Of a DNA stretch of 64,000 nt, positions 48,376-51,879 are shown piece by piece. The stretch is taken from positions 62,001 to 126,000 of the forward strand of contig JABIBQ010000028.1 of the NCBI GenBank assembly GCA_018652685.1, written 5' to 3'. This DNA comes from Candidatus Bathyarchaeota archaeon. GTDB lineage: Archaea > Thermoproteota > Bathyarchaeia > TCS64. A program made the translations under genes and the position numbers. The notes under the pieces were generated by a model. That model was not told the DNA's origin. It saw nothing but the letters and a program-made list of their open reading frames with translations, and did not search any database. Each line of letters opens with the position of its first letter. Positions within the stretch are counted from its first letter, which is position 1.

Positions 48376-48552
48376 ATGACAACGTGCATGGAGCCCTGGA
48401 CATCAGGTGGAAGATGGAGGAAATCAGGAAAATGGTGGTACTACTCCTCAACCCTGGGCGTCGATCTTCCATCCGCCATCGCCTCGAAGATGGTCAAAAA
48501 CGCGAAAAAGTACCCATCCTTCGAGTACAGGGTCAGGTTCAGGAAGTCCTAA
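48376..48552 (+). CDS. small basic protein, not previously recognised
   Basis: A 58-codon frame from ATG 48376. The protein is rich in aromatics and basic residues, with WRKSGKWWYYSSTLGVDLP in the middle and ending YPSFEYRVRFRKS, a composition unlike out-of-frame noise. It lies in the 265-base gap between ferritin and the reductive-dehalogenase-like gene and overlaps the latter's stop by four bases. I do not recognise a family. The overlap style is the same as that of other convergent gene pairs in this window, which supports it. Confidence 0.5.
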   Translation: MTTCMEPWTSGGRWRKSGKWWYYSSTLGVDLPSAIASKMVKNAKKYPSFEYRVRFRKS

Positions 48553-49940
48553 TCGTAATTGAGCCACTTTGACACAGGTTTCGGCTTCCAGTCCCTACCA
48601 TAAAGGGCGTATTCGACGTAGGGGAAGTATATCCTGGCGAGGTGGCTGTTAGCGACGAACCACCTGATTATGTTATGGATCAAAGTGTCCGGCCTGCTGA
48701 ACGGGCATGTAGCCATGCATATCCCGCAGTCGGTTCCCACCTCTCCCCAGTACTTGAAGCAGGTCTCGGGCTCTAGTATCCATTTCTCAACGCCGTTGTT
48801 GATTGTCTTCTTCCCCAAGGGGATGCTCTTGCTTGGGCATGTCTCGGCGCATTTCTGGCACCTGACGCAGAACTCGTCAACTCCAAAGCTTATGGGGTTG
48901 TCCGAGACCAGCGGCATGTCCGTTAACACTGCGAATACTCTGACTCTTGCACCCTGTTTGGGCGTTATGAGGAACCCTTGCCTGCCCACCTCACCCAGGC
49001 CCGCGTCTAGGGCTATCATAGGGGTGATGACCGTGTAATGTCTCTGGTGCTGAGCCAGTCCTATGTAGCCCATGTTCCTGAACCACTGGCTCACAACGGT
49101 GCTGATGTAGGCTCCAAGCGCGTAGTTGTTGCTTGACTCCGTAGACTCCGGGGTATGTGGGGCCGACGCCACGTTCTCGTAGGCCATCTCGGTGACGAAC
49201 ACCAGCGCGTACCCAGGAGTATCTTCTATAGGTCTACCCCAATCATCCCAGTTCTCGTAGTGGATCTCTCCTTTATGTGAATAAACCACATCCGGGTTCA
49301 CTTCGCAAGTCCCCACGCTGCACGCTCCAAGGTGTTTAGTCAGTCCTTTCACTATCTCTGTTGCCCTCTCAGGCGAAATTTCCTCCCTGACAGCCCCATC
49401 CTTGGGGACGGCATGGGCTACCCTGCCAAGAATAGGTGAAATTGCGTGGTTTGCCTGGATCATGGACCTGTTCGCGGGATGGCCTCCGTCTATCTTTCCC
49501 AGCTGCCTCTTGCTCCTCTGAACCCTAATGGTGTCATCGATCGTCTTGGATTTCGGGTGACTCCTGTAGTACTCTTCATACTGAGGTGTGTCCTGCTTCA
49601 GCTTGTTTCGTGCGAACACGATGTCCCTTTCATCCACCCTGCTGTACTCGCCCTTCCTGTACCCCTTGCTCCCGAGGAGGGCTTCCTTGTTCTGTTTAGC
49701 GGGGATGAGTAGGACGATGAGAACCACCCCAATAACCCCGAAGTACCCGAGAACAAGCTGCCTCAATGCAGGCATGTACAGGATGACCGGGATCAATGCG
49801 GTATGCCCCAGCCCCCCCAGCGAGATGATCACTGTTGGCCTTGTCTCGTGCTCCTTTATCGAGTCAATGACACCGAAAATTGATAGTGCAATGATGAACA
49901 GATCAGCGCTGAGAATTATCGGGATTACGAACTGGTCCAT
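48549..49940 (-). CDS. membrane-anchored reductive-dehalogenase-like iron-sulfur protein
   Basis: A 463-residue protein. Residues about 5-85 form three membrane helices; the rest is a reductive dehalogenase-type catalytic domain with ALDAGLGEVGRQGFLITP, the arginine-rich GARVRVFAVLTDMPL, and two iron-sulfur motifs, CVRCQKCAETCP and CFKYWGEVGTDCGICMATCPF. The domain binds a corrinoid in known members and removes halides from organic compounds; related queuosine reductases share the core. There is no Tat motif: the N-terminal helices anchor it instead. ATG 49940 has a TTAATTTTATAC box about 30 bases upstream; longer starts at 49958 and 49991 exist. Confidence 0.8.
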   Translation of the reverse strand: MDQFVIPIILSADLFIIALSIFGVIDSIKEHETRPTVIISLGGLGHTALIPVILYMPALRQLVLGYFGVIGVVLIVLLIPAKQNKEALLGSKGYRKGEYSRVDERDIVFARNKLKQDTPQYEEYYRSHPKSKTIDDTIRVQRSKRQLGKIDGGHPANRSMIQANHAISPILGRVAHAVPKDGAVREEISPERATEIVKGLTKHLGACSVGTCEVNPDVVYSHKGEIHYENWDDWGRPIEDTPGYALVFVTEMAYENVASAPHTPESTESSNNYALGAYISTVVSQWFRNMGYIGLAQHQRHYTVITPMIALDAGLGEVGRQGFLITPKQGARVRVFAVLTDMPLVSDNPISFGVDEFCVRCQKCAETCPSKSIPLGKKTINNGVEKWILEPETCFKYWGEVGTDCGICMATCPFSRPDTLIHNIIRWFVANSHLARIYFPYVEYALYGRDWKPKPVSKWLNYD

Positions 49941-50042
49941 ACCCCCATATTCCCGCATGTTGTATAAAATTAATCTCGGCTCCTCCGGCATAGTCTGTTT
50001 TATATCGAATGAGGCTTGTCTATCCCCAAAGCGGTTACGCCT

Positions 50043-51329
50043 ATGATTGAAAAAGTAGACAAAATAATCGATGAGAACAGGGAAGAATACATCGAGCTAC
50101 TGGGAAACCTGGTTCGATGGTACCCAGAGGGAGAGGAGGCTTTCCAGCAAAGGATCGCTGACAGGCTAGAAGAGCTTGGATGCGAGGTCCATATAAAGAA
50201 GCTGCTGCCAGTGGATGTCCAGCTGAAAAAGGAGTTCGCGGTGGCAGAAGCAATCGACATGACCGATAGGACTCACGTAATTGGAGTCTACAAAGGAACT
50301 GGCGGTGGCAAGAGCCTTATGCTCATCACCCACCCGGACGGCGACCCAATCAAGACAGAGACGTGGAAGAAGGAGCCCCACACAGGTCAGATAATCGGCA
50401 ACAAGATGTATGGATGGGCAGTCGCTGATGACAGTGCAGGAATCGGTATGATGACCGAGGCAGTCGGTGCGCTGATACAGGCTGGGTACAAGCCGAAGGG
50501 CGATGTCTACCTGATGAGCGCAACCGCAAAGAGGAACGCATGGGGAATAGCCGCACTACTGATGGACGGGTACAGGGCTGATGCAGCACTGTACATACAC
50601 CCAGGTGAATCCGAGCTAGGAATGAAAGAGGTCAAGACCCTCACATCCGGGCTGCTCAAGTTCAGGATCAAGGTCAAGGGCATGAGGCCACCAAAGACCG
50701 AGTTCGTTCAGGTAACATTCCACCACCTGGGCGTGAACCCCATCGACAAGGCCATGTACGTCATCGACGAGATGAAGAAATTCGACGAGACGAGGAGGAA
50801 GAGGATCACCTACCCGCCGCTCAACGATTACATCGGTAGGGGCACACAGCTACTCAACACATACATCGAGTCAGGCAAGAAGGACAACCTCACGGACATG
50901 CCACCGGACTGCACTCTCGGTTTTGGTTTGACATTCCCACCACCGGAGGATATCGATGCAACGGTCAAGGAGGTCGAGGCAGAGGTCAAGAGAATCTCAG
51001 ATTCAGACCCATGGCTCAAGGAGAACCCTCTGGTGATTGAGTGGATTCAGGGCACCCAGGGAGTTGAGATCCCATTGGATCACCCCGTTGTCGTCACAAC
51101 CATGGACGCAATCGAGGACGTCACAGGTGAGAGGCCGTTCAGCAACCCCCTTTACTCCAAGAGCGATGTCAGGACACCTATGCTGATCGCTGATATACCA
51201 AACGTCGGCTACGGGCCCCTTGCGGGTGATCTTGCCACCACTGGCGGAAAGGACGAGTGGGTTGACCTGGATGACTACATCAGGGCCATAAAGGTTACAG
51301 CTAGAATTATTATGGAATGGTGTGGCTAG
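50043..51329 (+). CDS. M20-family metallopeptidase-like protein with altered active site
   Basis: A 428-residue protein of the ArgE/DapE/M20 fold. The first metal motif THPDGD and the bridging aspartate in GWAVADDSAGIG are present, but the catalytic Glu-Glu expected after strand 4 (usually DEE-x-G) reads SATAKRNAWG, the next ligand region reads IHPGES, and the C-terminal histidine region reads DLATTGGKDEW. It may be an inactive relative or an enzyme with changed chemistry. ATG 50043 is favoured over TTG 50016, with a GTTTTATATCG box about 45 bases upstream. Confidence 0.7.
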   Translation: MIEKVDKIIDENREEYIELLGNLVRWYPEGEEAFQQRIADRLEELGCEVHIKKLLPVDVQLKKEFAVAEAIDMTDRTHVIGVYKGTGGGKSLMLITHPDGDPIKTETWKKEPHTGQIIGNKMYGWAVADDSAGIGMMTEAVGALIQAGYKPKGDVYLMSATAKRNAWGIAALLMDGYRADAALYIHPGESELGMKEVKTLTSGLLKFRIKVKGMRPPKTEFVQVTFHHLGVNPIDKAMYVIDEMKKFDETRRKRITYPPLNDYIGRGTQLLNTYIESGKKDNLTDMPPDCTLGFGLTFPPPEDIDATVKEVEAEVKRISDSDPWLKENPLVIEWIQGTQGVEIPLDHPVVVTTMDAIEDVTGERPFSNPLYSKSDVRTPMLIADIPNVGYGPLAGDLATTGGKDEWVDLDDYIRAIKVTARIIMEWCG

Positions 51330-51799
51330 GGGAGCTTGATGTCAGGATCCGTCCTGACCAGCTCGATTATCTTTTTCGCTGACCATTTTACATAGTCTTC
51401 ACAGAAATAGATGCCATTTGCCCTGTTCTCTGCGTATTTTTTCTTACCCTCCTCGGTTCTAGTATTCGCCCCGAGCAGGTCATAGCAGTTGACGTTTCCC
51501 CACTTGTCCTCGAACATTTGCAGGTAGATCTGGGTCTTCTCCCTCGCTTTTTCCCTGATTGCCGTGTATTCATCCGGGGCCTCGTCGCCGTTGGTGCCCA
51601 TGAGCAGCCCGTAGACCATGCATCCCCCGCTTACAGCACCGCAGAGGCTTCCCCAGCCCCCGCCGCCGCCACCCATGTTGGATGTTGCCCTCATTACTTC
51701 TTTCCCAAAGCCTTCCAGTGGTATCTCGTCGTTCACGAACATGATTACGCTTTCACAGCAGTTGTACCGCTTGCCGTCCTTCTCGTACATGCCTGACAT
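51326..51799 (-). CDS. C_GCAxxG_C_C family redox protein
   Basis: A protein of about 157 residues with the cysteine set of the C_GCAxxG_C_C family: NCCESV near the start, a glycine-rich NMGGGGGGWGSLCGAVSGGCMV core, then later cysteines (NVNCYDLLG, IYFCEDYV). Members are small redox or split-ferredoxin-like proteins with unknown partners. The glycine run is unusually long. ATG 51799 follows a TTTGATAAAAC box; the frame runs upstream to TTG 51859. Convergent with the M20-like gene, overlapping by four bases. Confidence 0.7.
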   Translation of the reverse strand: MSGMYEKDGKRYNCCESVIMFVNDEIPLEGFGKEVMRATSNMGGGGGGWGSLCGAVSGGCMVYGLLMGTNGDEAPDEYTAIREKAREKTQIYLQMFEDKWGNVNCYDLLGANTRTEEGKKKYAENRANGIYFCEDYVKWSAKKIIELVRTDPDIKLP

Positions 51800-51879
51800 G
51801 TATCCACACTCGTAGAAAATGCTATCGAAAACGGTGAGTTTTATCAAATAGGACTGCAATGGTTGTAGTGATTTCCATC

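Follow-up and report, generated by a model that had tools for sequence, protein, structure and literature searches.

A membrane-anchored hybrid reductive dehalogenase of a Bathyarchaeota archaeon with a predicted cytoplasmic catalytic domain

Described reductive dehalogenases (RDases) differ in how the catalytic chain relates to the membrane. The PceA2B2 complex of Desulfitobacterium hafniense (8q4h, PMC10624902) is built from two chains, exported by Tat and placed on the outer face. In the catabolic, cytoplasmic enzymes NpRdhA and BhbA, an NADPH/FMN/2Fe-2S module is fused to the chain and membrane helices are lacking, and the Asgard RDases of Loki- and Thorarchaeota are soluble, with no fused membrane helices reported (PMC6737245). 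A further group, the hybrid RDases, has three membrane helices at the N-terminus of the catalytic chain itself, together with an EXE motif; it was described by Jochum 2018 (PMC6129605) and Atashgahi 2019 (PMC6797604) and already includes one archaeal (Korarchaeota) member. Hybrids are found in many sediment phyla and have been predicted to resemble the PceA2B2 complex (Cimmino 2023, PMC10624902); dehalogenation has been demonstrated for none of them (PMC6797604). Published topology predictions place their catalytic domain on either face, with mixed TMHMM results that include many outside C-termini (Table 1, PMC6797604). RDases of Bathyarchaeota have also been reported (PMC6472368).

Here we describe a hybrid RDase gene in a 64,000-nucleotide stretch of a Candidatus Bathyarchaeota archaeon genome, the whole of which we call the window. 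Its product shares with the published hybrids the three N-terminal helices, the EXE motif at the helix 1-helix 2 turn, both Fe-S motifs and a length of 450-500 aa, as well as the lack of a Tat motif and of an adjacent rdhB. The architecture itself is already known, and the publication of hybrids (PMC6129605, PMC6797604) has overtaken the premise of a preliminary description of the locus that known respiratory dehalogenases need a separate anchor. The genome around the window differs from the published cases in its Bathyarchaeota host and in holding six soluble RDases in addition to four hybrid copies. New here are the profile match of the EXE hairpin to RdhB, a uniform charge pattern across the family and the RDase gene complement of an archaeon; the match and the charge pattern together provide one testable model for the whole hybrid group. 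We read the window gene as a hybrid, anchor-fused corrinoid/Fe-S RDase that would face the cytoplasm and dehalogenate natural organohalides, with a probability of about 0.62.

Gene, family and catalytic core

The open reading frame spans 48549-49991 on the minus strand and encodes 480 aa counted from the first ATG, and residues are numbered throughout with M1 at 49991. The end at 49940 given earlier corresponds to an internal start, M18 (MDQFVIP...). M18 is likely the true start, since the relatives' proteins begin just ahead of helix 1 in the alignment and a TATA-like box lies upstream of M18 at a spacing like that of a leaderless archaeal transcript.

48549..49940, minus strand: hybrid RDase coding sequence, M18 being the likely start (TIGR02486 180.5 bits, relatives' starts, position of the TATA-like box)
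49962..49969, minus strand: TATA-like box TTTTATAC, read from the sequence and centred ~26 bases upstream of M18

By family, the window protein is a reductive dehalogenase, far beyond chance. It scores 180.5 bits against the RDase model TIGR02486 (NCBIfam; cut-off 160.35), and its sequence matches the PDB relatives NpRdhA, SmPceA and DhPceA at E 8e-41 to 3e-31. From an alignment of 20 relatives, AlphaFold2 gave a model (mean pLDDT 90.9, pTM 0.88) that retrieved PceA at 1e-20, 8q4h_A at 1.6e-19, NpRdhA at 1e-19 and QueG at 2e-6 in a fold search. The RDase-like domain of the preliminary description is upheld by these matches. A queuosine-reductase-type or other corrinoid Fe-S reductase acting on a compound without halogen would have the same fold in its favour, since QueG and the window protein share it, but we regard this as very improbable. 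The QueG model TIGR00276 gives 34.3 bits against a cut-off of 200, the genome encodes two separate proteins that prefer the QueG over the RDH model, and the comparison with queuosine reductases proposed earlier does not group the window protein with them: QueG is separated in our trees from the RDases, including the window clade, with support of 95/92, but the AU test of the window clade joined with QueG gave p 0.058, and the RDase/QueG rooting near the clade is not firm. The two QueG-preferring proteins are short (~255 aa; L019 1288-2049 and L020 1297-2070) and fall well below the QueG cut-off.

The catalytic core is well conserved, as seen in the following features.

48834..48869, minus strand: 4Fe-4S motif 1, C375-x2-C378-x2-C381-x3-C385-P (sequence, Pfam Fer4_7, invariant in relatives)
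48702..48761, minus strand: 4Fe-4S motif 2, C411 ... C422-x2-C425-x3-C429-P (sequence, invariant in relatives)
49122..49124, minus strand: Y290, equivalent of the catalytic SmPceA Y246 / DhPceA Y337 (alignment, invariant in relatives)
48939..48941, minus strand: R351, equivalent of SmPceA R305 / DhPceA R396 (alignment, invariant in relatives)

Both iron-sulfur motifs are complete, as had been noted, and all eight of their cysteines are invariant in the 20 aligned relatives. The roles assigned to Y290 and R351 are those of the PceA Tyr and Arg at the same positions (PMC10624902). The corrinoid contacts, proposed earlier as a check, are less constant. Most of the DhPceA residues that PMC10624902 places around the corrinoid have changed: H395, K399, H461 and S479 are replaced by V350, A354, I405 and G423, respectively, and N454 aligns one position off N399. 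SmPceA likewise lacks H395, and its own Asn272 is missing from the window protein. The chain, of 480 residues in all, continues for 51 residues after C429, the final cysteine of the clusters, and Pfam assigns it only Fer4 families; from the Pfam result and the protein length, a fused NAD(P)H/flavin/2Fe-2S module of the NpRdhA type is absent. The window protein resembles NpRdhA and BhbA in its fold (E 1e-19), its lack of a Tat signal and its predicted cytoplasmic side, whereas these enzymes form a separate branch in the tree. With the Asgard RDases it shares an archaeal host and the lack of both a Tat signal and rdhB.

Membrane domain and predicted orientation

The N-terminal part of the protein forms the membrane domain, which in the AlphaFold2 model precedes the RDase domain.

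49854..49928, minus strand: transmembrane helix 1, residues 22-46 (hydropathy; AlphaFold2 helix 16-46)
49845..49862, minus strand: S-x-x-E-x-E turn, S44-E47-E49 (EXE motif), between helices 1 and 2 (alignment)
49776..49844, minus strand: transmembrane helix 2, residues 50-72 (hydropathy; AlphaFold2 helix 50-72)
49704..49772, minus strand: transmembrane helix 3, residues 74-96 (hydropathy; AlphaFold2 helix 74-94), absent from the RdhB hairpin

Hydropathy and AlphaFold2 agree on the three membrane helices first seen on this chain, and the N-terminus contains no RRxFxK, in keeping with the earlier report that a Tat signal is missing. The EXE motif reads E47-H-E49; S44 and E47 are invariant in the 20 relatives and E49 is invariant in a set of 5. 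This turn, S-x-x-E-x-E or a close variant, is common to hybrids of many phyla, and the hairpin turns of RdhB proteins read SYGEDE (beside Sulfurospirillum PceA) and SYVEIE (beside a Dehalococcoides RdhA). When a profile of the hybrid membrane domain was run against 4,497 background ORFs, two RdhB proteins were the top non-hybrid ORFs (E 0.001 and 0.006), and in a block-shuffle control on these two proteins 0/1000 and 2/1000 shuffles scored as high. In the Dehalococcoides RdhB, the match covers helices 2 and 3. In the DhPceB structure, E61 and E63 lie in the loop between helix 2 and helix 3, the two helices that enclose the menaquinone (PMC10624902). From the profile match, the EXE turn and the agreement with the DhPceB loop, helices 1 and 2 of the hybrids appear to correspond to the EXE hairpin of RdhB, on good but limited evidence, two RdhB sequences having been compared. 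Helix 3 has no counterpart in that hairpin and leads the chain back to the face on which the EXE turn lies. Searches of the PDB with RdhB or the hybrid membrane domain returned nothing, or chance rhodopsin matches only, and are uninformative, hydrophobic segments as short as these being poorly detected by such searches. The window protein and PceA2B2 share the RDase fold, the catalytic Tyr/Arg pair, the EXE hairpin and C-terminal helices with a His/Arg/acidic/Tyr set, whereas the window protein is a single chain with an extra third helix, probably on the inner face.

The distribution of charge points to this orientation. Among 25 distinct relatives with three helices, Lys and Arg residues are more numerous on the EXE-loop/catalytic side than on the opposite one in all 25 (119 vs 23 in total), a count that applies the statistical positive-inside rule to relatives that are not independent of one another. 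Together with the lack of a Tat signal, this pattern predicts a cytoplasmic EXE loop and catalytic domain in the window protein and its hybrid relatives, and the inner-face position proposed in the preliminary description gains support from it, all the more as the genome does encode TatC. Features of respiratory RdhAB (PceAB-type) systems are missing on the protein and beside its gene (no RRxFxK, no adjacent rdhB). An extracellular catalytic domain, as in Tat-exported RdhA and reached by another export route, would agree with the outward-facing EXE loop of RdhB in the solved complex (PMC10624902) and with the outside C-termini that TMHMM gave for many hybrids (PMC6797604). However, we consider it improbable, as the charges point inward in every relative counted, Sec would need to export an unfolded cofactor protein, and the window protein has no Tat motif. 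The loops of RdhB themselves carry few positive charges. The charge pattern would settle the mixed TMHMM predictions in favour of the cytoplasmic face.

Electron donor and proposed mechanism

In the mechanism that we propose for a cytoplasm-facing hybrid RDase, the RdhB-like EXE hairpin would consist of helices 1 and 2 and the S-x-x-E-x-E turn that joins them, and helix 3 would bring the catalytic domain to the turn's face. The catalytic domain would fold and receive its corrinoid in the cytoplasm; because the charge pattern puts the EXE/catalytic face there, no Tat export would be needed. Electrons taken up at or near the membrane surface would travel along the two 4Fe-4S clusters to base-off cobalt and from there reduce a halogenated organic compound, with Tyr290 donating a proton and Arg351 supporting Tyr290.

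Two readings of the electron donor can be weighed, and the first concerns the C-terminus.

48600..48683, minus strand: C-terminal helices, residues 437-464, with H439, R443, E460 and Y464, matching the DhPceA menaquinone-site helices alpha17/alpha18 (alignment; PMC10624902)

In the alignment, K489, H495, R499, D515 and Y520 of the DhPceA menaquinone site correspond to R433, H439, R443, E460 and Y464, and these equivalents are conserved in 20 hybrids from many phyla. H439 and its neighbours are also found in the six soluble paralogues and in relatives without transmembrane helices, and such C-terminal residues occur in organisms without quinones too (PMC10624902). For these reasons we do not read the His/Arg/Asp/Tyr set as evidence that a quinone is used; it is compatible with quinol use and is not proof of it. 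Neither MqnA nor MenD was found in the genome, a difference from PceA2B2 hosts that makes menaquinone synthesis by known routes unlikely in this archaeon, with import or another carrier possible. Two sub-cut-off MenD matches proved to be acetolactate synthase-like.

The preliminary description took an inner-face position to suggest another substrate or a corrinoid-dependent assimilation role, either of which may apply. Such a position does not in itself argue against respiration: the electroneutral PceA2B2 complex oxidises quinol and dehalogenates on one and the same face (PMC10624902), and an electroneutrality of this kind would hold on the inner face too. The hybrid could then be an inward quinol:organohalide oxidoreductase, in which a quinol site on the cytoplasmic face is built from the inverted RdhB hairpin together with the C-terminal helices and the organohalide is the terminal acceptor. 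The retained EXE turn, the conservation of the menaquinone-site equivalents across phyla and the resemblance to PceA2B2 expected by Cimmino 2023 (PMC10624902) speak for it; the missing MqnA and MenD, and the presence of the C-terminal residues in soluble paralogues and quinone-less organisms, speak against it, and we hold this reading to be rather unlikely.

Somewhat below even odds, in our judgement, stands an assimilatory or detoxifying dehalogenase supplied by a cytoplasmic ferredoxin or flavodoxin, with an anchor that only holds the enzyme near hydrophobic substrates. The cytoplasmic orientation from the charge pattern and the lack of quinone synthesis markers are consistent with such an enzyme. 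A flavodoxin gene, a candidate electron donor, lies directly upstream of one soluble paralogue (L090 4646-6380). In addition, genes near the genome's RDases include MFS transporters, amidohydrolases and oxidoreductases, which suit the use of halogenated organics and suggest catabolism of organic compounds. However, inspection of the ORFs around the window gene revealed neither an adjoining rdhB nor an electron-donor gene beside it, and an EXE turn kept across phyla implies more than passive anchoring.

More speculatively, and with low probability, the hybrids as a group may be an inside-out RdhA-RdhB, with a cytoplasm-facing EXE hairpin and a third helix, that would use scavenged corrinoid to reduce organohalides with electrons drawn from a membrane carrier other than menaquinone. 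If true, this would be an export-free form of organohalide respiration in archaea.

Host genome, corrinoid supply and relatives

The genome (completeness 94.9%, contamination 8.7%) encodes ten RDases, an unusual number, all above the RDH cut-off: four hybrids (C60, C10, C70 and C81; ~50% identical) and six soluble proteins of 385-410 aa. The window gene is unlikely to be a contaminant, since it lies on a 134-kb contig with archaeal genes, including aIF5B-, Cdc48- and AglB-like ORFs recognised by eye; those paralogues that sit on shorter contigs are assigned with less certainty.

The source of the corrinoid that we infer for these enzymes is harder to account for. Searches of the genome found no FecCD/BtuC-type permease, CobS, CobQ or CbiZ, and in positive controls on 14 well-known genomes the same searches detected FecCD, CobS and CobQ in 10-13 and CbiZ in 5. 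Of the corrinoid transport suggested earlier as a check, a BtuC-type permease was thus not found in the genome, and what was found is a generic ECF energy module with no neighbouring substrate subunit. The corrinoid source is left unexplained by these results, which counts against the dehalogenase reading; genome incompleteness or families outside the search could account for the missing genes. Ten RDases without recognised quinone or corrinoid-uptake genes make the questions of donor and cofactor concrete for sediment archaea.

At E <= 1e-70, a hybrid RDase is present in only 2/257 genomes of the class, both of the host's genus. The hybrid of one same-genus genome (G001) has a membrane domain identical in sequence to that of L030, from a 'Candidatus Bathyarchaeota archaeon' MAG. 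The nearest outside relatives, retrieved by an alignment-based scan of genome contigs, come from three 'Deltaproteobacteria' MAGs and are 45-46% identical over the full alignment; in the tree, these three hybrids and the archaeal copies form a fully supported clade (100/99) within the RDases. As the archaeal copies are not seen as one clade, hybrid RDases have likely been transferred between domains, in one direction or the other. A clade of RDases without transmembrane helices (L049, L050, L051, L054, L058, L061 and L077) groups with the hybrids and keeps the H-x-x-[IV]-R ... DDLxYG C-terminus without the three-helix membrane domain. Separate membrane subunits were looked for beside these relatives, and none was convincing.

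Several further genes lie near the RDases of this genome. Three soluble RDase genes stand in tandem with a TauE-type permease alongside (L088 5032-8594), and a multihaem c-type cytochrome is encoded a few kb from the hybrid RDase of contig C70 (L086 621-2207). In the window, an M20-peptidase-family gene at 50016-51329 (plus strand) keeps the HxD and bridging Asp region and has SATAKRNAWG at the expected catalytic Glu-Glu position, so that its product may be an altered hydrolase or a degenerate one. A putative redox protein of the C_GCAxxG_C_C family is encoded at 51326-51859 (minus strand), also near the RDase gene.
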